DNA from: Argopecten irradians
Lineage: Eukaryota > Mollusca > Bivalvia > Pectinida > Pectinidae
NCBI RefSeq assembly: GCF_041381155.1
Contig: NC_091142.1
Span: forward strand, 8,046,778-8,110,777
Length of the DNA stretch: 64,000 nt
Direction of reading: 5' to 3'
A program made the position numbers and the translations under genes. Of this stretch, positions 12,155-62,131 are shown in pieces. The number at the start of each line of letters is the position of its first letter. Position 1 is the first letter of the stretch. The notes under the pieces are model-generated. The model saw only the letters and a list, made by a program, of their open reading frames with translations. It was not told where the DNA came from and searched no databases.

Positions 12155-15100
12155 ATGTGTATTTCATTAGTGGCACTTTTCGTGGAATTTTTACCGTATT
12201 TGTGTGTGGTTACTGTGCCGATCTACGGCTCATTTTGTGGCGTTGATATTATTTTACGCGTGTCGGTTCTTCTGTATGTGTATGTGATATGCAGCGAATT
12301 CGTACCTGGTGTTTTGGTAAGAACAGGAGAAAAGTTGAATCGAATATAAATATCATTTCAATGATATATTATGAACATCCGTAAAATTCTTAGCCATATT
12401 ATAAATAAACAAACGTAATTAAAAACAAGAAGCTCCAAATCTTTAACATAATATTACGAATCGAACACGAGTGAAAGTTTTGAATGTCTAGCAGACGATT
12501 TTTTTTCAAAACTTTTGGTTATCATTCTTGAAGACCTTTATCCTTCTGACTTCGCAGTTTCCAAACATATACATCCATGTGTATTTATTCTATGACTTTA
12601 TTTACATTTGATATTTTTATAGTTTTTCCCAAATCTTGATTTACATATGATATGCATGCCACGTTCGTTGCATACATTCTTAATTCATAGCCCAAACTCC
12701 ATTTGCAAAGTGGTGAAAAAGTCCTGAACTTAAACTTCTAAACCTGGCTAATGGTGACATAAACAAAAACAAACGAATAAAGTTATATACAGAATCCTAC
12801 AAAATGTCTAAATGCCAATACAGCTGGATTTTGAAATACATGTGTATCAGACATCGCGAAAGTTGAATAAAAAATGGCCAGACATTCAGAATGGCGAGGA
12901 CTGTTAGTAAACCGTACGGAACAAGATTTTGCCGAACCGAACATTAATGTGAATTTAAACATGTCATTTTCCACCAATTAGTATCCATGCTTTCATGATT
13001 ATTTTATGCAGTTTAAATTCTACATTGCTGTGGGGTTAAAAAAACCATTCTGGTACTCAATAATTGCTGGACAGTCGGTCCGGACCAGATTTTAAAATAG
13101 GCGGTCTGCATTAAATTTTTCCGGACATGTCCGTCGATCCGACTAATTTCGCTATGTCTGGAGTATCCCAAAAGGATGTGGGTATATATTATAAAGTACA
13201 ACTTACCGTCGATAAGTCACACCTTGGCATGATTTCTGTGATGTCACAATCACCAGAAGGTTGGCCAAATTGACAGTAAATTATACATTATCCATGTCGA
13301 TTTGGCATCTTGAAACTCCTGCATTAATTGTATTTGTCAATGTTTTGTAGTACCAGGTGATGCCGTACCTGAACCTTGGTATCCTTGGACTGATTTGTTT
13401 ATATCTGCCTGTGAGCCTGATCCCCTACCCTTTAATATGGATCTATGACAAGTTCATATGGATGTCCGAGTTTGGACTTCAAGTGGCTGAAATTGTGCTT
13501 GCCCTCAACTTTGTGATGCACGTCAGTGAGAGAGTTATGGAAAAGATCGAAGACGAACAGCCTCCAGTTTTAAAGGTACCATTTACACCGGAGATATGAA
13601 TAATGGTGTTAAACACAAAGTATCACAGAAAATATCTTTATTAGAGATAATTTTTAACTTCAATGTTTGATACATTGTATTTCTGATTCATCATAGGCAT
13701 ATATATATATAATTATAATTTATATTAATATATCTATAATTCAATTTGTTTCTAATTTTCAATTCAACTCAGTTATTTGAGACGATGCATATCCAAAGTT
13801 GTTACATGCAATAAATTTCAGTTGCTATCCAACATGATATTTATGGTTTATAAATGAGCATCAACACTTTTCTTTGTCAGAAGTCTTTATTATGATCAAA
13901 GGATGCAATACACAAATATAATTATTAGTTATCTGAGTGACCTTCTCCCTCAGGGACAGGTTTTTTTGAGGAGTAAAATAAACTAACACAAATGAGTCTG
14001 GATACATGACAGTATTAACACTATGAAAGGTTTAACACACACTGATAATCAAATGCAAGTAAGGCCAAAAAAAAATATGTATGTTTCAGGTACCCCTACC
14101 TACCCTAGTTTTTACCTCCGACCCTACCTATTTTATCACACTTTTTCAAAACAAAAATGTAGAGTGTGAAGTTTTCAGTTCAGATTTTTACGCTTGCTTT
14201 ACGTTAATCCAGACAAAATTCAATTATGGTAATGAGAAATAAAAGACTTCTAGCTAGCCTAAGCCTGAAAGACAAATTACTTTGTAATGTAGTAATAAAG
14301 CAACTCAACCTCTCCCCCACCCCTCCTAAAAAAAATAAAAATAAAAAATAAAATAAAATAAATTCCCGACCGACCGACCTACCTTATTTTTTTCAGTCAT
14401 GTAACCTGAAACATGCATATAATTTTTTTTGGCCTAAAAGAGATGTGTTGCCACCTTGTGCACTTATTGTCAATGTAAGAGCATGTTCATGATTTTACAT
14501 TAAGTTCCATTTGTTTCATTTAGATCTGTTTCAGCTTCATTTGCTTCAAAGTTTTCATAATTGGTTTCCACTTTCTTGGAATTACAAGTTTTTTGATTCT
14601 TTATTCTTTCATAATTTATTTCACTGATATATATACATTTGATACAAACATCACCATTGGTTTCTATTTCCTAATGATCGTTATGTGAATCACAAAGTTT
14701 CCTTAATCACTACACATGGTGGACAAGGCTTGTCCGACATGGTTGTTGTCATTTTGTTGTCTCCAGAAGTACCAGTCATAAATGAGCATCAACAGTTTCC
14801 TTTGTCAGATGTCTTGATTATGATCATTCTAAAGCTTTAAACAGCTATGAAACATTATTTTATCGGCACATGCAATGGCAGAAATTGCGACGGTCTACCA
14901 AAGAATTTGTTTGAAATGAGTTGAAATTTTTCCCCCAAACCTAGCGATACTTTTAATAGAGAAGATAAATACATATACAGTCAAATCTGCTCTAACGACC
15001 GCCTGTATATAACGACCGCCTGCTCTAACGACCGCCTGTATATAACGACCGCCTGTATATAACGACTTGTTTTTAGACTCCCCATGCGTTTTTACTATAT

Positions 15101-18100
15101 AATGTGCATAACGACCACCTGTCTAATGTGGCTAACGACCGGTCATTTTAGCCCAGTCAAGGTTGTCTAACGACCGGTCGCTGAGATCAACTTTTCTAGT
15201 ACAGTGTGTGTGTAGTAGCGTCCCTTTTACATGTACCTACTTCCGGTAATAACTCCCTTAGTAAGTAAATGGCAACCATTACTGTATATATATGTACTAA
15301 TAAATGTAGTTTTGATAGGAAGATGTCATACAGTATAACAAAATAAATTGAATTCTCTGTTATAGGTTGTTGTAGTTTGTTTCACTTCGCTGTGCTATGC
15401 CATGATGGCGTCACTTGGTATGGCAATCTACAAGGAGGGTTCTCTTGTACAGCTGTGGTGAGAAAACTTTGTTAGTTATAGTTAGTTAGTTACTTGTTTG
15501 TTATTACTGAAGTACATGATCAGATTGAAAACTTGGTTGAAAAGTTCAATCAATCAAAAATTCCCCTGAAAAATTAATCAAAGTATTACTGTAAACCCAC
15601 TTTCTTTAATTCGCATGAAATATACTTTCGCTGATTTCGCGACCAAATAAATTCGTGAAAGTTTATCTCCGGGAACTAACATCTATATCATTGATAAATT
15701 GATAGGAATATCCAGTCATTTTTTAATATCTGAGAATGTTAATCTTTGCGAACTTGTTTTGAAATGGAAATCGTGAAATTAAGTAGCCACTATGAATGTT
15801 GGTTTACACTATTTATTACAATGTATTTTGATTACGGTATACGAAATATGATAGCAGTTACGTATACCTTCAACTGCTAACTGTACTGTTTCAGAAATAC
15901 ATGTTTATTAATGAGTTATTAATTAATGGACTAACAAACACTGATTATTGATGAGTTATTAATGGACTAATGGTTATCGTTACTTTTCACAGGCTGTTGT
16001 TTCTCGTGCTGGTGCTGTGTCTGGCAGTTCACAACATGATGTGGATGTCACAGGAAGGTAAGATTGTTATCACTCCATGTTGGAAATTACAGGACAGAAG
16101 GCTAAATACAGGAGCAAAAGAAGTAATGACTTCTATAATTGAATGGAGAAAATTGAATTCTAATCAATTAAAAATTAAATTTTAATAAATTTCTATGATC
16201 TGGCTACAAAATATTTTTAAACAATTACAAGTTACTTTATCACAGATCATAATTATTGTCATAACAACAACAATATCATGTCAAATCACTGCTTTACATC
16301 ATGTTGTCCTTATAACAGTTGCCCTTTTATGTACAAGATAAAGAAACTATATATGTCTTCATTTTTTTTTTACTGAACGTAGTTTGAATTGCTTATTTTT
16401 CAAATATGAAGCATTTTATTAACATTTTTACAGGGATTTTGTGTGATGCAGCATTTTCTTGTCTTTGTTGTGTGGCAGTGCTGTATGCCATGAAGGATGA
16501 AACACAGCTTATTAAGCATCCGCTTAATACACCTGAGACCTGGTACAGGTGAGAATTTACTTTATACACCTGAGACTTGGTACAGGTGAGAATTTACTTT
16601 ATACACCTGAGACCTGGTACAGGTGAGAATTTACTTTATACACCTGAGACCTAGTACAGGTGAGAATTTACTTTATACATCTGAGACCTGGTACAGGTGA
16701 GAATTTACTTTATACACCTGAGACTTGGTACAGGTGAGAATTTACTTTATACACCTGAGACCTGATACAAGTGAGAATTTACTTTATACACCTGAGACTT
16801 AGTACAGGTGAGAATTTACTTTATACACCTGAGACCTGGTACAGGTGAGAATTTACTTTATACACCTGAGACCTGGTACAGGTGAAAATTTACTTTATAC
16901 ACCTGAGACCTGGTACAGGTGAGAATTTACTTTATACACCTGAGACCTGGTACAGGTGAGAATTTACTTTATACACCTGACCTGGTACAGGTGAGAATTT
17001 ACTTTATACACCTGAGACCTGGTACAGGTGAAAATTTACTTTATACACCTGAGACCTGGTACAGGTGAGAATTTACTTTATACACCTGAGACCTGGTACA
17101 GGTGAGAATTTACTTTATACACCTGAGACCTGGTACAGGTGAGAATTTACTTTATACACCTGAGACCTGGTACAGGTGAGAATTTACTTTATACACCTGA
17201 GACCTGGTACAGGTGAGAATTTACTTTATACACCTGAGACCTGGTACAGGTGAGAATTTACTTTATACACCTGAGACCTGGTACAGGTGAGAATTTACTT
17301 TATACACCTGAGACTTGGTACAGGTGAGAATTTACTTTATACACCTGAGACCTGGTACAGGTGAGAATTTACTTTATACACCTGAGACCTGGTACAGGTG
17401 AGAATTTACTTTATACACCTGAGACCTGGTACAGGTGAGAATTTACTTTATACACCTGAGACCTGGTACAGGTGAGAATTTACTTTATACACCTGAGACC
17501 TGGTACAGGTGAGAATTTACTTTATACACCTGAGACCTGGTACAGGTGAGAATTTACTTTATTACACCTGAGACTTGGTACAGGTGAGAATTTACTTTAT
17601 ACACCTGAGACCTGGTACAGGTGAGAATTTACTTTATACACCCGAGACCTGGTACAGGTGAGAATTTACTTTATACACCCGAGACCTGGTACAGGTGAGA
17701 ATTTACTTTATACACCTGAGACCTGGTACAGGTGAGAATTTACTTTATACACCTGAGACCTGGTACAGGTGAGAATTTACTTTATACACCTGAGACCTGG
17801 TACAGGTGAGAATTTACTTTATACACCTGAGACCTGGTACAGGTGAAAATTTATTTTATACACCTGAGACCTGGTACAGGTGAAAATTTACTTTATACAC
17901 CTGAGACTTGGTACAGGTGAGAATTTACTTTTATACACCTGAGACTTGGTGCAGGTGAGAATTTACTTTATACACCTGAGACTCGGTACAGGTGAGAATT
18001 TACTTTATACACCTGAGACTTGGTACAGGTGAGAATTTACTTTTATACACCTGAGACCTGGTACAGGTGAGAATTTACTTTATACACCTGAGACTCGGTA

Positions 18101-21100
18101 CAGGTGAGAATTTACTTTATACACCTGAGACCTGGTACAGGTGAGAATTTATAATTTAATCAATTTTCTGAAGATCTGGTACAGGTGAGAATTTACTTTA
18201 TACACCTGAGACCTGGTACAGGTAATGATTTAAAATTTACTCAATTTTCTGAAGATCTGGTACAGGTGAGAATTTACTTTATACACCTGAGACCTGGTAC
18301 AGGTGAGAATTTATAATTTACTCAATTTTCTGAAGATCTGGTACAGGTGAGAATTTACTTTATACACCTGAGACCTGGTACAGGTGAGAATTTATAATTT
18401 ACTCAATTTTCTGAATATCTGGTACAGGTGAGAATTTACTTTATACACCTGAGACCTGGTACAGGTAATGATTTATAATTTACTCAATTTTCTGAAGATC
18501 TGGTACAGGTGAGAATTTACTTTATACACCTGAGACCTGGTACAGGTAATGATTTAAAATTTACTCAATTTTCTGAAGATCTGGTACAGGTGAGAATTTA
18601 CTTGATACACCTGAGACCTGGTACAGGTAATGATTTAAAATTTACTCAATTTTCTGAAGATCTGGTACAGGTGAGAATTTACTTTATACACCTGAGACCT
18701 GGTACAGGTAATGATTTATAATTTACTCAATTTTCTGATGATCTGGTACAGGTGAGAATTTACTTTATACACCTGAGACCTGGTACAGGTGAGAATTTAT
18801 AATTTACTCAATTTGCTGAATATCTGGTACAGGTGAGAATTTACTTTATACACCCGAGACCTGGTACAGGTAATGATTTATAATTTACTCAATTTTCTGA
18901 ATATCTGGTACAGGTGAGAATTTACTTTATACACCTGAGACCTGGTACAGGTAATAATTTATAATTTACTCAATTTTCTGAAGATCTGGTACAGGTGAGA
19001 ATTTACTTTATACACCTGAGACCTGGTACAGGTGAGAATTTACTTTATACACCTGAGACCTGGTACAGGTGAGAATTTACTTTATACACCTGAGACTCGG
19101 TACAGGTGAGAATTTATTTATGCACCTGAGACCTGGTAAGGATGAGAATTTACTTTATACACCCGAGACCTGAAACAGTTGAGAATTCACTAAATTTTCT
19201 GAAGATTTGGTAAATATGAATATTCTTCAATATAACTGAGATCTGTACAATATTGAGAATTCATTTAGTATGTGTGAGACCATAATCTTCAAAGGAAGTC
19301 TTTACAGGCCTGTGATTAGTCAGTTTTTTAGGTCATCTGACCCGAAGGGTCAGGATGACCTATAGTTATCACGTTTTGTCCGTCGTCATACGCCGTCTGC
19401 CGTCCACCGTGCGTAAACTGTTCACATTTTGAACTTCTTCTCCAGTACTACCAGTGCGATTTGGCTGAAACTTGCATGAAATGATTCTGACATGATCCCG
19501 ACAAAGTGTTGTTACATCTCTGATTGATCCCAAATTGAAGATTGCTACCATGACACTATATCTAATTAATTTCCTATATGATTATTGCCAAGGTAGTCTG
19601 ATGACCGTTATTAAGGCCCTTGGGGTTCTGAATTATCTCCAATTTTACTATGTGATAGTAACCTGGAGTATCGAGGATGGCATGAGACCTACAGGTGAGA
19701 GAACACACTCATTACACTAGATACATGGGACCTGGTGAGCTTATTATTATATCAGGTATGACAATGACAAGTTATTGTTAAAATGTTTATTTCATTACAT
19801 GAACAGGTATGACAAGGTATTGTTGAAATGATTTATCATTACAGGTATGATAAGACACAGTCTTTAATTACCATTGGGAGATACATTATTGGCAGCTCTA
19901 TAGGTACGTACTGTACATTTATTATTTTTTTATTTGTTGGTGAAGATATTATCATCTATCCAAAAATATTATTTTGAGTTCAAATGCCTACTTTTAAGAT
20001 TTGATTTGTGTTTAAGTTATGGAAAATTGACTATGATGACCATTTTTTTTGTCCCTCAACTTTTCCATTTAATGTATGGGTTAGGCTTGTTTGTTTGAAA
20101 AAGTTGAAGATTAAGATGATATTTTCTTTCATACCTACGGGTGTAATACTGGCTGGTCTAGGGCAATACACTCATGTCACCTGAGGCTGTTTGCATGGCT
20201 ACCCATGCAATAAAGCCTTGTGACGTCACGGCGTCAGCAAAAATTCTATTTCCTTGGTAAAATTTTAACATTTTTTTCAGAAATATGATTGGTTTTGCTA
20301 TAACAGATGCAAACAATGGAATTTGTGTTGAAAATATCACGTAATTTTTCATGTATGGAAAATTGACTTCCAGTCGTGGATTTCTTCGAATTTATTTCAA
20401 AATGGCGGGATATTATAGTTGTAAAATTCCAATAAAACGTCAAGGTATGAAAGAAAAATACTCTTTCAAATTCATGTGTGGATATGAAGGATAGGGTTAT
20501 TCTACCCTCGGGATCACAAAATGTTATCCCTATCCTTCATATCCACATATGAAAGAGTCTTATATTCCTATCATTGGCGCATAAATCTTTTGTTTTTGTT
20601 GAAAAAAAAAATTCAATGTTCAAATTAAACAAAATTTATTGATAATTAGTATGGTAATATATCTTTTGACTTTTATGATGTAAGAAAACTTCATTAGATA
20701 TTATTCCGCCTTTGCATGTTACAGAGTTAGCTCACAATCAATACATGTACCTAGCCGCAAGTGCAGATAGCTCTGTTATATACAAATACAGAATAAATCA
20801 TAAAGTGTTTATTATTCACAGTAAAATCTGATTGGACAATAATAATCAAATTTAAATGTCAAAATATGAAATTAAATAAAAATTATAAAATGAATACCAT
20901 TTAGCCAATTATTTTTGTAGGATAATATTTCCACAATTTTTTGGATTATTGTTATTATCATACAATTTTATCCACAAATTATTATAAAACGATTGAAATA
21001 AAAAAACAACATTGTAGCGAATTAATATGAATTTAACTATCATTTTAGGCCAGAATTGTAAAAATAAGAGCAACAAAAGTAATTGGTTATATGGAATTGA

Positions 21101-22587
21101 CTTAGAGACTTTCTGTACTACTCTGTCCTTTTCTGTCGTAGATAATGCAGCCCTTGCTCTGGAATTCCTGATGAAGTTCCTACGGCCATTTTTCCTGGTA
21201 ACCTTAGGTATAAGACTGTATTGTATACTCTACATCACAGAGAAAGTCACCAAAAACTTCTTTGACAAGGTAAGATCAACAGTTTAAAAAGCAAATACAT
21301 AAAAATCATTTCTTTAAAGTTGCTCCACCGTCGAAAGAGCGAAAACGATATCTATCAGTTGGACAATGATCTAATTTCAATTTCAACAAAATTTTATTTC
21401 AATTAAATTAAATTGAGAAAGGATTAAACAATAGACAATGCCTATGTAAGTTTTTCCCCTGAATAAGAAGCTGAAACATTTCAATGATGGTAATAGAAGA
21501 ATAATACTAACTTGGCTTGTCTTGTTTTTAAGAGATAGAAATTGCCATTCGTGGGAGATGTAGCATCTTTGAATTTAATATGCTCACCTTAGGCCCAGTT
21601 TCATCAACATTCCTTAACCTGAAGGATTTTTCCATAAAATCTGTAATCCTTTCCTTATTCCTAAAGTTAAAGAATATTCATGAAACTGAGCCCAAATCCA
21701 AACGTGTTCAGCAACCCTCAACAAATCGCAAAAAACACTGTATAATATATATATTTGGTAACCGAATTTGGGTGGTAGCAATCTGATGGATTGAGGATTT
21801 TAAATAGTAGAAATGGTTGGGCTGATCCCCAGGGTACCCGAGAAGCATGGTCAAAATATTTGATCAAATTGCTATAAACTACTTGTTTTGAATGGATTTG
21901 CTAATATACATATATGGATTGAAGATTCAAAATTTAAATGGATGACTGGTCACCCTCCCCCAACCCCTGGAGACCTGAGTGATGGAACCAAAAGGAGTCA
22001 ATTTGGCCATATTGCTATTCTTTAAAAGTTATGAATAGATATTTGCTTTGTGTTGTATGTATAAATATTCTCATTGTGGTTGGTGAATTCAAGAAATCAA
22101 ATTTGTACAAAAAAAAATGTCTTCCAGGGGGTCGGATTTGGCCGTATTACAGTACTTGCGATTGACTTTTGCAATTCTTAAGTTTTAAATAAACTTTCAC
22201 TGTCTTTTATTAATTCTTGTCAAACTGCATGTTACCTAAATTTCCTTGTGAATTTACCTTCGTATGTGATGAAACCTGTTTCTGCCACAGGAGGATTCAA
22301 TGGATGACTATTTCGATCAGGAGGAACGTCTGTCGCCATGGCGATCACCTATTACAATGAAGCTTGCTGTGATTTTTATGTTCACTCAGATGACCACAAA
22401 CTTATTCTATGCTAGTCGTGGGATTTCCTTTGCCAGATTCTATCCTCTGGAATTCCTGGACAACTTCTATCCCAGTGACATTGTTTTGGGACGATTACTA
22501 CAGATACTTGTAGTTAATTTGTTTTACATGTGGCGGCTGTACTATTCTGAAGAATGGGCCTGGAGTGATTGGTTCTCATCATCATAA
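12155..22587 (+). CDS. Gene A: multi-pass membrane protein, unrecognised family, eight exons
   Basis: Exons: 12155-12316, 13351-13575, 15366-15457, 15993-16057, 16434-16548, 19845-19903, 21142-21269, 22291-22587; every junction is GT-AG and phases join to 380 residues. A stop lies directly upstream of ATG 12155. Hydrophobic segments suggest about nine membrane passes: two in exon 1 (4-24, 28-48), one or two in exon 2, one each in exons 3, 4, 5 and 7, and two in exon 8 (ITMKLAVIFMFTQMTTNLF; LLQILVVNLFYMWRL). No signal peptide or known motif was seen. Conserved with gene B: LLYxYxICxxxVPxVL, YKEGS/SKEGS, GILxDAAFSxLCxVALxYAMKxE, YITxKxTxNxxDKE and an F/RILxVNxFYxWRL C-terminus. Function and substrate unknown; a transporter, receptor or channel are all possible. 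Intron 5 starts with a minisatellite of duplicated donor sites. The splice model is inferred from sequence and paralogue agreement only. Confidence 0.75.
14063..14434. mobile_element. GGCCAAAAA-ended MITE in gene A intron 2
   Basis: The ends are inverted repeats of about 30 bp: GGCCAAAAAAAAATATGTAT with GTTTCAGGTAC at the left, GTAACCTGAAACATGCATAT with AATTTTTTTTGGCC at the right. The interior is CCTACC/GACCGACC rich on one side and A-rich on the other; no coding capacity. Confidence 0.75.
14983..15205 (+). mobile_element. pogo/Tigger-like terminus with ACGACCGCCTG repeats
   Basis: Begins CAGTCAAATCTGCTCTAACG, typical of pogo/Tigger-type ends, then repeats TAACGACCGCCTGTATA or CTCTAACGACCGCCTG about five times, and ends in the TAACGACCGGTCGCTGAGATC block. 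It lies in intron 2 of gene A. Likely a short internally deleted DNA transposon; the second terminus is not certain. Confidence 0.5.
15588..15809. mobile_element. ACTGTAAACC-ended MITE in gene A intron 3
   Basis: Left TACTGTAAACCCACTTTC and right ATGTTGGTTTACACT are inverted repeats; the interior has the TTCGCGA / TTCGTGAAA blocks seen again at about 38748-38970, 53560-53810 and 57880-58050. Non-coding. Confidence 0.6.
16529..19187 (+). repeat. 37-bp minisatellite made of an exon end plus 5' splice site
   Basis: The first unit starts inside exon 5 of gene A at 16529. The unit is ACACCTGAGACCTGGTACAG (the last 20 coding bases, for TPETWYR) followed by GTGAGAATTTACTTTAT (the first 17 intron bases), 37 bp in all. 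Roughly 44 units run head to tail to about 18160 with few changes (ACTTGG, ACTCGG, ACCCGAG, one-base T insertions). From 18160 to 19000 a higher-order unit of about 80 bp alternates the 37-mer with a variant containing TTTACTCAATTTTCTGAAGA, about eleven times; five more 37-mers follow and decay at 19130-19187. Nearly every unit keeps a consensus CAG|GTGAGA or CAG|GTAATG donor. The native exon-5 donor is the first (16548|16549). Use of any later donor would read TGA right after the true junction. Confidence 0.93.
19329..19624 (-). mobile_element. Short copy of GGCCC/GGTCATC-ended element (family 4)
   Basis: One end is the palindrome AGGTCATCTGACCCGAAGGGTCAGGATGACC (shown here only by its halves AGGTCATCTGACCC and GGGTCAGGATGACC), followed by CGTCCGTCGTC-like sequence; the other end is TAGTCTGATGACCGTTATTAAGGCCCTTGGG. 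The same two ends bound the 1.35-kb element at 59898-61245 in the opposite orientation, but here the tandem array is missing. It sits in gene A intron 5. Right of it, 19654-19681 is the right end of a MITE family 2 copy (CTGGAGTATCGAGGATG). Confidence 0.7.
19754..19844 (+). repeat. Duplicated splice-acceptor segments before exon 6 of gene A
   Basis: The exon 6 boundary ACAG|GTATGATAAG (19841-19854) is preceded by two similar blocks, TATCAGGTATGACAATGACAAG near 19753 and GAACAGGTATGACAAGG near 19801, each followed by GTTATTGTTRAAATG-like and TTTATTTCATTACA-like sequence. They look like tandem copies of the intron end with its acceptor. Confidence 0.6.
20121..20562 (+). repeat. Dispersed repeat family 5, copy 1, with terminal hairpin
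   Basis: Runs from TTTCATACCTACGGGTGTAATACTGG through GCATGGCTACCCATGCAATAAAGCC to a palindrome whose arms read CTCTTTCA...GGATATGAAGGATAGGG and its complement (20460-20556). A second copy lies inverted at 47901-48375. In gene A intron 6. Confidence 0.7.
21315..21570 (+). mobile_element. MITE family 1, copy 4, deleted and diverged
   Basis: TTTAAAGTTGCTCCACCGTCGAAAGAG at the left and GAGATGTAGCATCTTTGA at the right, with a shortened interior that lacks the CGGAATTTTTTCGGGATGC block. The oldest-looking member of the family. In gene A intron 7. Confidence 0.7.
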
Positions 22588-34592: not shown

Positions 34593-34865
34593 AGGACAGT
34601 AATTCCGGCTTCAGCTTAGGTGCACAAATCTTACACATATATGGCATATTATAATTATATGTCTATGCCGACACGCTTTGATAGCGACTGTTGCTACAGG
34701 TTAAACAGTTTAACGTTAAATATACACTACTACTAACTTTAGAATTGCCTCAAGGATATTCCCATTAAGGGACTTTCCCGAATTTGCATTGATCACACAG
34801 ACGCTTGCATGCACTACAACAAGTCGAATCATAATTATTTCTTCTGCTTATTTGACTTTTGCACA

Positions 34866-37800
34866 ATGAGGAGCAATATTGAGTTATTTGTGGATTTTTT
34901 GTTTTTCCTGTGTGCAGTGTTAATGCCGGTCGTGTGCCTAATGTTCGGTGTAGATCTAACAATATATATGTCGTTTCTCCTGTACACGTATGCAATCTGC
35001 TGCCGATTAGTACCGAATGTTTTGGTAAGAACCAGTGTTTGTTTAAATTAAGTGTGTCATGTAAATGTTAAGTCTATCTTATAACCATCCGCGATACTCT
35101 AGGGGTTACTATCACTGACGTTATATCAACTCATGGACTATCTCATAGTAAAACTGGAGGCAGTTTAGCAGAAAAAAATGACCAATCACAGGCCAGCAAG
35201 AGACTTCCTTTAAAGACTACATACATAGAGAGAGAAGGGGGGGGGTAGGGTAGGGCGGGGGGAAGAGAAAGGCCCAACCTCAAAGCAACACAGTCAATAT
35301 TCAATTCTTTTGATGTACATCTGTACATGTGTCTTCTGTTGCCTCCATTTACTATGAGATAATCCAGGGGTGGATATTACGTCAGTGATAGTAACCCCTG
35401 GAATATCGAGGATGTGGTATAAGTCACATCGACCAAAGCGGCCGATATCAACAACTGTCTATTTGCCATATTAGATATGATACCCCAATTCAATGCTATA
35501 TGAGTTTCTTGTAGATGACAGTTTTTCAATGTCATACACCATAACAGATTATATATCTTAACAGTTTAGATAGGTTATTTCCATAACATTTTTTAGAGTT
35601 TCTTCTTGCTGTGACATAAGATCTCACCAATCTTCGCCAAGATGTTCCACAGCATGTTCAAAGTTCGTGTTGGATTTTGGAAATCTAAAATCATGTAAGG
35701 TTATAGTACCCCATATATTATTATTAGGTATGAAATAACTGCCTTCATAACTTCTGGTTCAGTATAGGATGTTGCCGTACCTCTACATCAGGTTCCTTTG
35801 CCTGGGACTGTCGTTTGTAGCTGTCAGCCTGATTCCAATCGAAGTAGTAAGGTTTTACGAAATATTCCTTTGGGTATCAGAGTTTGGATTCCAGATGGCT
35901 GAATTTCCACTTCTTCTAAATCATATGATGCATGTCAACCGCACAATCAAGGAAAAAATGAAGGGGAACTACATGTATTTTCTTGTTTCGAAGGTAAATA
36001 ATGCTTCACATCAATATTACATAATATAATTACATCATTATATCATAATATTTGATGCCAATTAATATTTACTTATAAATTGATTTCTTTTGGTCATGTG
36101 AAATGATAAATCCCTGATTCATAATTTACATATATTTATCTTGTGGTTCTGTTGTTCTACCTGTAACGTTTTGTAAACCTTCAATATTAGGGTTTATAAT
36201 TGAAAAGTTGATTAAGGTTTAAGGGTCAATTTATACAATATACATTTTTGGCCCTTTTTGGATGAATACATTTAGAATCATGTCCACGGAAAGTTATTTT
36301 TTCGGTGGGGAATCCCAAGAGAAAATTAATCTTTCCACGGGGACAATCTTAATTGTATCTCGACACACATGATCATGATTATTTTATTATATTTAATAAA
36401 TCTAAAATAAATCCATGTTTGTTATATTCCACATTAACAAGAGTAAAAATAAATCGTAAATATATTTACTAACAATGTTGCAAAATGTGTCGGACTGTAG
36501 TCAGTGGAGATGAACATCACGCTTTCCCGCGTGACATAAGCCGTTAATAACTGTATAGCACATTTTGTAGAAGGTTAGTGCTATTTTGGACTGAAGAAGG
36601 CCCTATAGTGGCTGAATATATATTTCATAGAAATGATTTTTTATTTTACTTTGAGTTTAATTAGGCCCTTTAATTCGGATTATTGATATACAAGCTTTAT
36701 ACCGTATTTATCTCATTATGTAGATTGCTTGGTTTTGCAGAATCTTTGTCGGGTAAAGGCTTTCAGCAACATCGTTGTTATTCTTGCTTGAAGGTACAAA
36801 CAACGATCATTTTCGGCCTCGTTCGGAGCTTCCAAGGTGTTATTTAACCAATTTACCTGGGGTTATTACTACACCTTCTTATTCCTTTGAAATATCTAAC
36901 TTATTCAATGGCATGGTGGCAAGTTTAATCCAATGAAAAAATATAATGTGAGGTATAATATGACGTGTTACACTGTACATGGATACCCTCTTTTATACCG
37001 ACCATAATTACATATAGTTTAGCCAGCTTTATTTTTCGTGTGCTATTGAATTCCGCATATGTCGAAGAGGACAAGGAAATGCTGTGAAATTATAACCACG
37101 AAAGTCTAGATCGCGAAATAATTACTCGCCGTGAAAATATCATTTGAATTTATCTTAGATTTTACTTTTTTTTTCTCTAAAACGCGAAATTAAGGCACAA
37201 CTAAAATTAGTTAATTTACAGAAATTTAAAAACCTTTCAAAATATTTCCCGAGTAATACTGTACAAATCGAAGCGCTTGATAGTTCTACTCTTTTAATTA
37301 TGATATCATCGTTACATACCGTCCGTGTCGAAATCCGAAAATCATGAACGTTTCTATAACGTATTTAGTGTTGACCTGAACTATGCATATATAACAATCG
37401 ATAGAGGTTTGTTTCAGGTTTTAGTGATATGTTCCGCGTTGCTATGGTATACACTTACAGCGTCACTGTGGGTGACTATTTCCAAGGAGGGATCTTCTGA
37501 GCAGCAAAGGTGAGGATAACAATTTGTATACATTCAAGGTATAATTTCAATTATTTCGCGGTGCTGAAATCATCCTCGATACTCAATGGGTTCCGATCAC
37601 TTGCAGTCTCTACACCCCTGGACTATCTCGTTGTAAAACCTGAGACAACAGAGCAGGTAACTTATTTGTTTGATGTACATGTACATCAAAAGAGCCGTAA
37701 AGCGATACAATGTGGTTGATTGTGTGGCTTTGAAATTTGGCGTCGCTCTCTCTGTACTCTTCAAAGGAAATCTTTGTAGGCATGTGATTGGTTCAGTTTT

Positions 37801-40160
37801 TTTCCCCTGAGCTGCCTTCAGTTTCATTATGAGATAGTCCAGGGGTGTAGAGATCGTGAAATATGAATAAACTTATCTTGCAAGATAAAATATCTTAATA
37901 TTTACTTTTAAAGATGCTCCACCGCCGACAGAGCATAAATGATATTAATCATTTGAGCAATAATTGGTGTTTATTCGTATAGATATATGTCTAATTAACA
38001 CAAAAAATAATCTAAAATGATTTGTTTCGTTTTTGGTGCAAGCGCAATCAGTACTTCATTCTACATATGATATAGTGACACGGAATTTTTTCGGGATGCA
38101 ATTAATTATTTTTCATATTTTTAACTTGAAGTAAAATTAGAAGGTCAAACTTTTCAATGGTGGTAATGGTGTAAAGTAAGTAACTTTTGAAACTCAAGAA
38201 AAATACTAAATCGTCTGCTTTTGTTTTTGATAGTGAAAAAATATCATTTGTCAGCGGTGGAGCATCTTTAATAGTTATGAGTTATAGATTGTAAATAATG
38301 CATGAATTGTAAAAAATTGTTTACGTAGTATTTTTGTAATACCTTATTTCTGTATAATTGGCACAGTCTGCTGTCCCTCGTACATGTTCTGTGCTTGACT
38401 GTACACTGTATAATGTTGATGTCGGAGAAAGGTAGGGTTAATATCATCTTATTTGCCTTCCAATGCTATAATGTCGATTATTTTCGTGCTGATGATAATT
38501 TCGGGATTTCGCGAAACATCCATATGATCGCAAAAACAGTTGAATTTCTGGTGTCTCGTTTCTGCTTAAAACCACGAATGTTCTTTGTTTTTGATGCCCT
38601 TTCCAGGTATCCTAAGTGATGCTGCTTTCTCCAGTCTTTGCTCTGTTGCATTGGTGTATGCCATGAAGAGTGAAAGTACAAATGCTCTGGCAGTGACGCA
38701 CGCCATGGATATTCATACTCAACATGACAGTAATTTGGTGTTATCATCTACTGTAAAGTTACTTATATTCGTGGGCTTTTAATTTCGCTTGATTCGCCGA
38801 TTTCACCACATTCCCGAAATTTTATACCTCGCGATTTTTTTCAAAAGTGATAGATTTATATAAATCAATAAATCAAATTTTCCTACGGCTAATGGGTGAT
38901 TCGTGAAAATTAACCCCCACGAATAAATTACAAATAGTAAATCGCAAAATTTAAAAACTATTCTGTAATTTGGATTATATATCAAACAGTTTTAATAAAT
39001 GATTTATATATTGATTTACGTTTTGTTTATTAATTTGAAATTTTGTTTTTTCTATGTATTCAGAGTTCTGGCATTATTGGAGTGCGTTCCTTCAGCGTGA
39101 TTTTCGGCTCAAGTTAGTTGTTAGAGTCTGCTGTATAGTTTACATTACTTACAAAATCACCCAAAATCCCTGGGATAAGGTAAGACCTATTTAGATTTAA
39201 TGTGTTGTTTTTATTATTGCTTAATATCATCACAATTTCAAATTTTACAAATTCGCATCAATCATTTAATATTAATTATACACAATACGAATAACCTCGA
39301 CGATAGGTTGTCTTTAAAACAATTTGAATATTTATTAGTTTAGTAAATACATATCTATGATGTATAAGATAAGTAAATAATAGCTAATTATTTTTTATTT
39401 ATTTTATTCTGTTATAGTTTCTATTGTTACCACAACAATATCCTCTGTATTAAATGATCTCTCTTTTGTTATTACAATAATGTATTTTCTCTGAAGAATG
39501 CTTACAGCTAGATTTAATTGATGAAATAGTTTCAAATAACAATATCAATAACAAGTAATTGGGTAAAACTCTTATGTCTGATGTTCGATTCCCAAGATAT
39601 AAGAGCAAATGTGGTCATATTAGGTCTTTTACGCAAACTAACAAACCGAATATGAAATAAGTGTCATAACAAATGTCCTGAAACGATAGAATCATATTCT
39701 CAAAATAAAAACAGTTACGGTACTGATTTTGAAACTACAAATTTAATTAGGCATATGACCTATTGAGTATCAAACGTGGGTTTAACATTGTGTTACTAAA
39801 ATGTTCTGACGTGTTTTTCTTGATTTTTGGGCAATCTAATAAAGTAACACATTTCTGTCTCAGGAAGAATCCCCAGTCTATGGTGACCAGGAGTTTCCTA
39901 TGCTCGGTGATAACCGGATCAGGAACGTTAAGCCCCCTCAATCAATCAATCAGGCTGACAAGGAAGAGCAGCGATTCTGGCGATCCCTATTCCTGATGAA
40001 ATTTGCTGTGGTTTTCATGTTCATTGGACTGTCAGTAAACCTATTCGATGTGAATAGAGGAAACTCCGTTCCCGGATTCAATGGTAACTATAGTCCGTGG
40101 CGGGTATTACGAATACTTGCAGTAAATGTGTTTTACCTGTGGCGACTTTCAGAAGAATAG
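34866..40160 (+). CDS. Gene B: tandem paralogue of gene A, seven exons
   Basis: Exons: 34866-35024, 35763-35993, 37418-37509, 38367-38431, 38607-38729, 39064-39179, 39864-40160, giving 360 residues. Exons 3 and 4 match gene A exactly in length (92 and 65 bp) and all phases agree, except that A's exon 6 has no counterpart: B exon 5 ends in phase 1 at a weaker donor (ACA|GTAATT) and joins the equivalent of A exon 7 directly. Hydrophobic segments fall in the same places as in A. B has an extra charged stretch at the start of the last exon (about 263-298, QSINQADKEEQ) and stops after WRLSEE, where A continues. The frame is also open upstream to an ATG at 34809, but similarity to A begins at 34866. 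Family and function unknown. No transcript evidence; the exon 5 donor is the least certain part. Confidence 0.72.
35086..35414. mobile_element. MITE family 2, long copy in gene B intron 1
   Basis: Left CATCCGCGATACTCTAGGGG, right CCCCTGGAATATCGAGGATG; arms continue with TTACTATCACTGACG, the CTATGAGATAATCCAGGGG mirror and TTTACTATG. A G-rich stretch (35236-35262) lies in the centre. No clear 9-bp duplication. Confidence 0.75.
37571..37857. mobile_element. MITE family 2, truncated long copy in gene B intron 3
   Basis: Starts CATCCTCGATACTCAATGGG and shares the GATGTACATGTACATCAAAAGAGC, TGTGGCTTTGAA and CTCTTCAAAGGAAATCTTTG blocks with the 42792 copy; breaks off after AGGGGTGTAGAGATCGTGAA, so the right terminus is missing. 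Confidence 0.7.
37909..38270 (+). mobile_element. MITE family 1, copy 6 in gene B intron 3
   Basis: TAAAGATGCTCCACCGCCGA to GTCAGCGGTGGAGCATCTTTA, with TA on both sides, about 97 bp before exon 4 of gene B. One of the best preserved members. Confidence 0.85.
38748..38970. mobile_element. ACTGTAAA-ended MITE in gene B intron 5
   Basis: Left CTACTGTAAAGTTACTTATA with TTCGTGGGC; right CCCCCACGAATAAATTAC and CTATTCTGTAATTT. Same family pattern as 15588-15809. It begins only 18 bases after the exon 5 donor of gene B. Confidence 0.5.
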
Positions 40161-59897: not shown

Positions 59898-61245
59898 AAC
59901 AAGAGGCCCAAGGGCCTTAACAGTCATCTGACTATCTTGGCAATGGCTGTATAGGAAAATAATTAGATATGGTGTCATGGTAGCCATCTTCAATCTGGGA
60001 TGAACCAGAGATATAACAATACTTTGACAAGATTATATCAGCCGCATTTCATGTTTCAAGTTTCAGTTAAATTGCACTGGTAGAACTTGAGAAGAAGTTC
60101 AAAATGTGTTTCAAGATGGCATCTGTGGCAGCCATCTTGTATCATCTGTGGCAGCCATCTTGGATTTTGGATCGACATAAAATATAACAACACTTGGTCG
60201 GGACCATGACAGGATCATTTCATGCAGGTTTCAGCTTAATCACACTGTTAGAACTTGAGAAGAAGTTCAAAATTCAAGATTTTGGAATATTTGACTCTCA
60301 TGACCTTGAAAGTAGGTCAAGGTCATTCATTTCCACAACTTTGATAGCCCTTTATCTCAGCATGCTACTGACTAAATATGAATACCCTGGATCTTTCGGC
60401 TAATTAAAAGGTGTAGTTAAAAGATTTTAGCTTAATTGACCCCTGTGACCTTGAAAGAAGGTCAAGGTAATTCATTTTTATAACTATGGTAAACCTTCAT
60501 CCCAGCATGCCACCAGGCAAAATATGAGTATCCTGGACATTTGGGTTAGTTAACAAAAATTGTTCAAAGAATTTAGCCTATTTGACCCCTGTGACCTTGA
60601 AAGAACGTCAAGGTCATTAATTTTCACACCTTTGGTAGCCCTTCATCCCAGCATGCTACAGGCCAAATATGAGTACCCTGGGTCTTTCGGTTAGTTAGAA
60701 GAAGTCGTTCAAAGATTTTAGCCAATTTGACCCCCGGTGACCTTGACAATACGTCAAGGTCATTTATTTTCACAACTTTGATAGCCCTTCATCCCAGCAT
60801 GCTACAGGCCAAATATGAGTACCCTGGGTATTTCGGTTAGTTAGAAGAAGTCGTTCAAAGATTTTAGCCAATTTGACACCCGGTGACCTTGACAATACGT
60901 CAAGGTCATTAAGTTTCACAACTTTGTAGCCCTTCATCCAAGCATGCTACAGGCCAAATATGAGTACCCTGGACCTTTTGGTTAGTTAGAAGAAGTTGTT
61001 CAAAGATTTTAGCCTATTTGACCCCTGTGACCTTGAAAGTAGGTCAAGGTCATTTATTTTCACAACTTTGATAGCCCTTCATCCCAGTACGCTATAGGCC
61101 AAATATGAGTACTTTGGGCCTTACGGCTATTGAGAAGAAGTTGTTTGAATGAAAAGTTTACGCACGGCGGACGGCGCACGGCGGACGACGACGGACGGTG
61201 CATGATGACTATTGGTCATCCTGACCCTTTGGGTCAGATGACCTA
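59898..61245 (-). mobile_element. GGCCC/GGTCATC-ended element with tandem array (family 4), long copy
   Basis: Left ACAAGAGGCCCAAGGGCCTT with AACAGTCATCTGAC; right GGTCATCCTGACCC, TTT, GGGTCAGATGACCT. The ends match the short copy at 19329-19624 reverse-complemented. A GGACGGCGCACGGCGGACG stretch lies just inside the right end. About six tandem units of 147 bp fill 60300-61130. Confidence 0.75.
60301..61060 (+). repeat. 147-bp tandem array with TGACCTTGA...TCAAGGTCA palindromes
   Basis: Each unit has TTGACCCCTGTGACCTTGAA, AGTAGGTCAAGGTCATT, CACAACTTTGATAGCCCTTC, ATCCCAGCATGCTACAGGCC and AAATATGAGTACCCTGGGTC. TGACCTTGA starts at 60301, 60446, 60592, 60738, 60884 and 61028; each is followed 6-7 bases later by TCAAGGTCA except unit 2 (TCAAGGTAA). 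Confidence 0.8.
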
Positions 61246-62131
61246 AAAAGAAAATTTGCATGTAAAACCAAATAACTTATTCCTGACTGCAACACTATAC
61301 AATGTTAGTACCGTATTCGACGTAGTTAGAGCCCCTCCCCCTATAAGCGTCTCATCCCTCTTCTTAAGGAGTTGGGTTATCCCATCCCATGGATTTAACT
61401 ATGCTTATAACATCGGCATAGTATCCTATATTACATGAACTTGCGAGTCGTTAACATTCATATGTGAATCACGACGTGTAAATAATGTGTATCAAAGCAA
61501 AGAAGGTATGCAAATGTATGTATACTGCGACATATTAATGTATCACGAGTACATAAAAAAAATAAGAATATGTCTTACTGTGTACTACAAATTTTATAAA
61601 ACGTTTTATTTTTTTTTTATTTTTTTTTATTTTTTTTTTATTTTTTGTATAACGAATTGAAACTTGCGTTTGTTCACTTCATTTAATTTTACACTCAAAT
61701 AGCGAATAGCCAACCTCTCATAACTCTATTTGAACCTTTTCAGCAAAGGGTTAATTTCATAATACACTGTACATATGGTATATATAAACTAAAAAAAGTT
61801 TGTTCATTCGTTTATTTATATCGGCCAGAGTCGTTATTTGGAAAAAAATATAATGTAAAACGAAATCAAGACAATGTTGATTTCCTTTCGCTCTAGCTAT
61901 ACAACTATTTTTTTCGAATAGAGCAGTTAAATAATACATGTTTATGGTATAAACAAATACGTGGGTATTGTAATGATTGATTGAGCTATGATGGAATACA
62001 AATTGCTTATGTGTTCAGAAGTTTGGTTTTTTTCCATCACTAAATGAAGTTATACTGCAGAAGAAATCAGAATATGTGTCTTAATGCATTGTTCAGGTTT
62101 TCTGCATTCAGACATAGCAAGATAAACACCT

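Follow-up and report, generated by a model that had tools for sequence, protein, structure and literature searches.

A 37-bp minisatellite across the boundary between exon 5 and intron 5 in a scallop gene carries about 70 copies of a 5′ splice site

We have analyzed a stretch of 64,000 nucleotides from the scallop Argopecten irradians (RefSeq assembly GCF_041381155.1, contig NC_091142.1, positions 8,046,778 to 8,110,777 of the forward strand; below, "the window", whose own numbering we use). In it the 5′ splice site that ends exon 5 of a predicted eight-exon gene, here called gene A, belongs to a minisatellite that starts inside the exon and extends 2.6 kb into intron 5. The repeat unit and the splice junction coincide, and we think that this is probably an ordinary minisatellite that was seeded on the junction and is tolerated by gene A, either through use of the first donor or through silent AG/GT splices within the array (slashes in sequences mark splice points). 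The main features are as follows.

16434–16548, + strand: gene A exon 5, acceptor TTTTTACAG/, donor CAG/GTGAGA (open reading frame continuity and homology to the Mizuhopecten yessoensis protein P0001)
16523–19191, + strand: minisatellite (Tandem Repeats Finder, period 37, 70.1 copies, score 3804)
16549–16557, + strand: exon-adjacent donor, GTGAGAATT, which among the seven donors of gene A pairs most strongly with U1 (−11.1 kcal/mol)
18097–19187, + strand: higher-order part of the array (Tandem Repeats Finder, period 81, i.e., 37 + 44 bp, 13.7 copies)
19107–19275, + strand: degenerate 3′ copies of the unit, in four pieces with local alignment scores of 16.5 to 36

As a repeat the array is far beyond chance. 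Scanning from 16434 to ~19130 with the core GGTACAGGT, with up to two mismatches allowed, found 68 donor cores spanning 16549–19106; a lone extra match, with two mismatches, lies apart from the array at 19695. The cores are of five types, CAGGTGAGA (56 copies), CAGGTAATG (6), CAGGTGAAA (4), CAAGTGAGA (1) and CAGGTAATA (1), and 67 of the 68 read AG/GT, with CAG/GTGAGA in 56. Successive donors are 37 bp apart in 52 cases, 44 bp in 11, 38 bp in three and 35 bp in one. Alternation of 37- and 44-bp units at ~18142–19000 makes the 81-bp higher-order repeat, and all six GTAATG donors and the single GTAATA donor lie in this part. Units 2–44 have a mean identity of 0.975 to the consensus and the 3′ edge is decayed, which together give the array the usual appearance of a minisatellite. 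The scores of the degenerate copies exceed the value of 12.7 that marks the 99th percentile when 40-mers are drawn at random from the window, and at 19231–19275 the unit is matched by 29 of 35 aligned bases.

The initial annotation of this DNA had proposed that a 5′ splice site was amplified to ~70 donors in a minisatellite, and the copy number, the 68 cores and the protein homology of the junction (below) all bear this out. It had also equated the unit with the exon 5/intron 5 junction, which stands, and divided it into 20 coding and 17 intronic bases, which does not: since the match to exon 5 extends back to 16523 with one mismatch, the 37-bp unit is best parsed as 26 bp of the end of exon 5 followed by 11 bp of the start of intron 5, GTGAGAATTTA. 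Its description of the donors as equally good was too generous, as 12 of the 68 pair more weakly with U1 than the first donor does. The pairing energies with the U1 5′ end are −11.1 kcal/mol for CAG/GTGAGA, −8.4 for GTGAAA, −8.1 for GTAATG and GTAATA, and −4.6 for CAA/GTGAGA. The nonamer of the first donor is carried by 55 later ones.

The remainder of gene A, against which the junction was judged, is laid out as follows.

12155–22587, + strand: gene A, eight predicted exons, spliced protein of 380 amino acids (homology and open reading frame continuity)
12155–12316, 13351–13575, 15366–15457 and 15993–16057, + strand: exons 1–4 (prediction)
19845–19903, + strand: exon 6, R/YDKTQSLITIGRYIIGSSI (homology to P0001)
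21142–21269 and 22291–22587, + strand: exons 7 and 8 (prediction)

A protein search with a provisional 375-amino-acid version of gene A gave 19 homologues, the best being M. yessoensis LOC110463107 (P0001), with which the gene A protein aligns over its full length at ~89–90% identity. All 16 homologues that carry a species name are from molluscs, and the remaining three carry none. Exon 5 ends in phase 2 (...TGG TAC AG/). The residues at its junction with exon 6, TPETWYR/YDK, are present in LOC110463107, and those flanking the junction are found, more loosely, in 17 of the 18 other homologues, the one without this stretch being P0019. The predicted exon 5/intron 5 junction is thus supported as real by protein homology.

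Joining any of the 67 later donors to exon 6 puts a stop at residue 220, right after TPETWYR, compared with 380 amino acids for the full-length protein, just as had been foreseen from the reading frame. When this 220-residue product was used as a protein query, it gave six matches, all of 326–382 amino acids and none cut at TPETWYR. The exons beyond the array show no decay. Identity to M. yessoensis is 0.899 in exons 1–5 and 0.887 in exons 6–8, and the corresponding values are 0.581 and 0.604 for Mytilus (P0002) and 0.548 and 0.509 for Saccostrea (P0003); this suggests, from sequence comparison, that the full-length protein is still made and still selected for. Splices inside the array, on which the initial annotation touched in naming recursive removal, have another outcome. 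With AG/GT in 67 of the 68 units they would usually rebuild CAG/GT, as computed from the sequence for 2146 of 2211 unit-to-unit jumps of at least 70 nt (closer pairs were excluded, and the figure is 2151 if the acceptor unit is not required to end in AG) and for 65 of the 66 such jumps that begin at the first donor. AG/GT-to-AG/GT splices could therefore delete pieces of the array without altering the mRNA.

In the explanation that we favor, a segment spanning the junction, with its 26 coding and 11 intronic bases, would have been tandemly duplicated and would then have expanded into the 5′ portion of the intron by slippage or unequal exchange, accompanied by homogenization. Splicing would proceed mostly from the exon-adjacent first donor, or else unit-to-unit AG/GT splices would silently rebuild the junction. 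A later donor used in the final step would lead to a stop right after exon 5, in transcripts presumably cleared by nonsense-mediated decay. The array would need no function, and its cost would be at most some fraction of the transcripts. The first donor would be favored by the order of transcription and by its closeness to the exon 5 body.

Several considerations weigh against this explanation. U1 pairing and local sequence give the first donor no edge over the 55 identical ones, and computed folding leaves it 22nd of the 68 in accessibility. Identical local sequence may instead favor the last donor. In experiments with duplicated strong 5′ sites it is often the intron-proximal one that is preferred, and by that preference the last unit would be the default and gene A would be poorly expressed. 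Either of the duplicated 5′ sites is reported to be able to win, depending on SRSF1 and hnRNP A1 (PMC5585400). The units are also poor in pyrimidines ahead of their AG (content 0.50 in 55 of the 67 later units, 0.56 in nine and 0.62 in three), which may make silent splices within the array inefficient; among the seven real acceptors of gene A, however, the content ranges from 0.50 to 0.88, with the exon 6 acceptor lowest at 0.50.

Recursive splicing (ratchet) sites have a strong polypyrimidine tract before AG/GT within a long intron. An alternative is that the array is spliced stepwise and restores itself, each AG/GT unit doubling as acceptor and donor in the manner of recursive splicing or of dual-specific sites. 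The presence of AG/GT in all units but one and the 2146 restoring jumps agree with it, and the tandem array of UBC is reportedly spliced through such sites (PMC10809524), but the low pyrimidine content before the unit AG speaks against it and the path would be unneeded if the first donor were used directly; we consider it unlikely. The fuller proposal, that the array is a self-restoring splice ladder in use, in which a failed step meets an immediate stop and a hypervariable copy number sets the output of the gene, seems to us very unlikely.

Another alternative would make the array a rheostat, with the number of decoy donors setting the rate of mis-splicing and array length tuning the amount of full-length protein via nonsense-mediated decay. 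The immediate stop from each later donor and the nonamer that 55 of them share with the first are what such a device would use, but with so many identical donors the gene would leak heavily if the first were not favored, and the donor columns show no sign of selection. In the 55 units of the 37-bp type there are 25 variants in the nine donor columns (2.78 per column) vs. 29 in the other 28 columns (1.04 per column), and as a few of the 29 stem from shifts caused by one-base insertions, the non-donor part looks slightly too variable. This count left out the first unit, which is exonic, as well as 12 others with more than eight differences from the 37-bp consensus, which by their spacing are eleven of the 44-bp type and one spaced at 35 bp. 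Selection on the donors was set aside as unsupported, since the donor columns vary more than the rest of the unit. Their higher variation is not readable as relaxed selection, because many of the variants are one linked type (GTAATG). The chance that the array acts as a rheostat is, in our judgment, slim.

A special role of RNA hairpins was also considered and rejected, as the signal is at most mild and the first donor is not set apart from the others. Each unit can pair CACCTG with CAGGTG in the computed fold, which buries all 68 donors: their probability of being unpaired is at most 0.018 (mean 0.002), against 0.004–0.38 for the other six donors of gene A. Compared with 100 dinucleotide shuffles, the first 370 bases form a more stable fold (z −6.3); of 300 controls in which the unit was shuffled and then repeated, however, 16 are at least as stable, and among 2000 37-mers drawn at random from the window 7.4% match the folding of a single unit.

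The surrounding genome is rich in minisatellites. Twenty stretches of 10 kb, taken at round positions on contigs C1–C8 (L010–L029), contain 21 arrays of at least five copies and at least 200 bp in a total of 200 kb; these are what is left of 34 arrays after exclusion of eight loci that overlap the donor array (L001–L008), two arrays of the contig C5 stretch L009 and three of the window. Some of the sampled minisatellites span several kilobases (L014, L027). The motif AGGTRAG was found on the + strand in none of the 21, and one of them has three copies of it on the − strand, in a unit that looks zinc-finger-like. If the sampled density holds throughout the genome, there would be some tens of thousands of arrays. 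Donors genome-wide are assumed to number 200,000, a rough figure. With that assumed number, ~1% of 37-bp seeds would contain a donor, so that very roughly several hundred donor-started arrays would be expected absent counterselection. In a genome with so many arrays, the position of this one on a junction is less surprising than its existence as a repeat.

Tandem repeats are a reported source of assembly errors (PMC6868369), and the array might have been inflated or misjoined in this way. However, its units differ among themselves and are ordered, with a stretch of 37-bp period, one of 81-bp period and a decayed edge, and the contig that holds it is longer than 8 Mb. A genome search with exon 5 plus the first unit gave at least 35 matches, and only the array and two exon 5 paralogues are among those listed; this search passes over simple repeats and highly frequent words, and its counts are lower bounds. 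An artefact is highly improbable on these grounds.

Gene A has a tandem paralogue, gene B, at ~34860–40160 on the same strand, and a further one on C5 (L009); each has a different donor at the end of its exon 5. The donor array was not found in gene B or the C5 paralogue, and exon 6 was not recognized in either. The C5 stretch encodes residues 212–326 of P0019, which is listed for A. irradians, without a difference. Like gene A, the C5 paralogue has intronic minisatellites; one with a 50-bp unit (L009:3221–4904) takes up the end of intron 4 and leaves 15 bp between itself and exon 5, so that this gene family has a second array next to a splice site. We also note that neither of the two protein searches lists gene A as an A. 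irradians model of its own, though the C5 paralogue is listed, and that this may be due to clustering or to an annotation gap. A Pfam search with gene A gave no family above the cut-off; its sole match, V_ATPase_I, has an E value of 0.35, far below the cut-off, and was rejected as the family. The predicted structure of P0001 is mostly helical, with a mean predicted local distance difference test score of 74, and a comparison of the model with the PDB gave nothing at E ≤ 0.001. The structure alignment comprised 16 of the 19 homologues, with P0005, P0014 and P0019 excluded.

Downstream of the degenerate copies, the rest of intron 5 holds two further features.

~19300–19680, + strand: interspersed repeat (blastn)
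19756–19844, + strand: extra acceptor contexts of exon 6, CAG/GTATGACAA, in two upstream copies (exon starts at 19756 and 19807)

The interspersed repeat has further partial copies at ~59907–61249 of the window and in L024, again by blastn. Past it, 19676–19712 scores 15.0 and 19713–19745 scores 12.5 when compared with the unit (99th percentile as above), and a scrap of the array may survive at ~19676–19745. The acceptor context of exon 6, CAG/GTATGA, occurs three times within about 100 bp, the third copy being that of exon 6 itself at 19845; use of the extra acceptors at 19756 and 19807 would give early stops, at 244 and 227 amino acids.

Parts of the junction are thus duplicated at both ends of the intron, the end of exon 5 ~70 times and the start of exon 6 three times, and this would fit the Rogers model, by which intron 5 would have been born through tandem duplication of an AGGT segment. 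The joined coding sequence TAC AGG TAT does carry AGGT, and gene B and the C5 paralogue are without a recognized exon 6 or an array. However, the intronic part of the unit has no obvious likeness to the start of exon 6, GTATGATAAGA, and we give such a birth of the intron very little credence.

The array amounts to a natural experiment on splice-site choice among near-identical donors. Because any unit but the first leads to an immediate stop when used in the final step, the readout of donor choice is clean, and the array could show whether proximity to the exon body, proximity to the acceptor or the order of transcription decides which donor is used. It also suggests that a minisatellite-rich genome may tolerate junction-seeded repeats when the unit carries AG/GT.

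The initial annotation knew of no described system of this kind, though it allowed that there might be one; precedents do exist, as the IFI6 minisatellite and AGGT tandem-repeat introns precede it. Turri, Cuin and Porter are said to have found in 1995 that a transcribed minisatellite of human IFI6 (G1P3, 6-16) provides several splice donors. Two downstream repeat units are reported to act as donors there, giving three mRNA species (PMC4526556). The likeness to gene A lies in tandem units that each contain a good 5′ splice site, the first being the native donor (68 cores in the scallop, 67 of them AG/GT). The scallop unit differs in being 37 bp long and part coding, part intronic, with 68 donors of which every later one leads to a stop; the unit of IFI6 is 12 bp, in frame, and present in about 26 copies.

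The second relative is the UBC type. Duan et al. (2024) report that AGGT tandem arrays are spliced and that a loss of fitness caused by repeat expansion could thereby be ameliorated (PMC10809524). There too AG/GT is present in nearly every unit (67 of 68 in the scallop), and removal of whole units leaves the joined sequence unchanged. The UBC sites, however, delimit coding ubiquitin monomers, whereas the scallop array is an amplified, pre-existing exon/intron boundary in which a retained unit leads to a stop. Segments repeated in tandem next to an intron are also reported in cases of intron gain, in fission yeast, with 24-nt repeats around two gained introns (Zhu and Niu 2013; PMC3629103), and in potato, in a paper that reviews the AGGT duplication model (PMC4974935). 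Those introns are new and have few copies, whereas the scallop array lies at one end of its intron.

More generally, minisatellite expansions are reported to modify exons and introns of human paralogues, and ~30-bp units at their boundaries may create novel introns (PMC2812944). These average ~4 units compared with ~70 in the scallop, and none is shown there to be an array of donors. A C. elegans minisatellite is likewise reported to be over-represented near regions of alternative splicing (PMC4039745). Full-text searches of open-licence papers gave no precedent with the same combination of features. The scallop array joins an IFI6-like donor minisatellite with the AG/GT units of tandem-repeat introns; it differs from these systems in a unit made up of coding plus intronic bases and in the stop that any retained unit brings.

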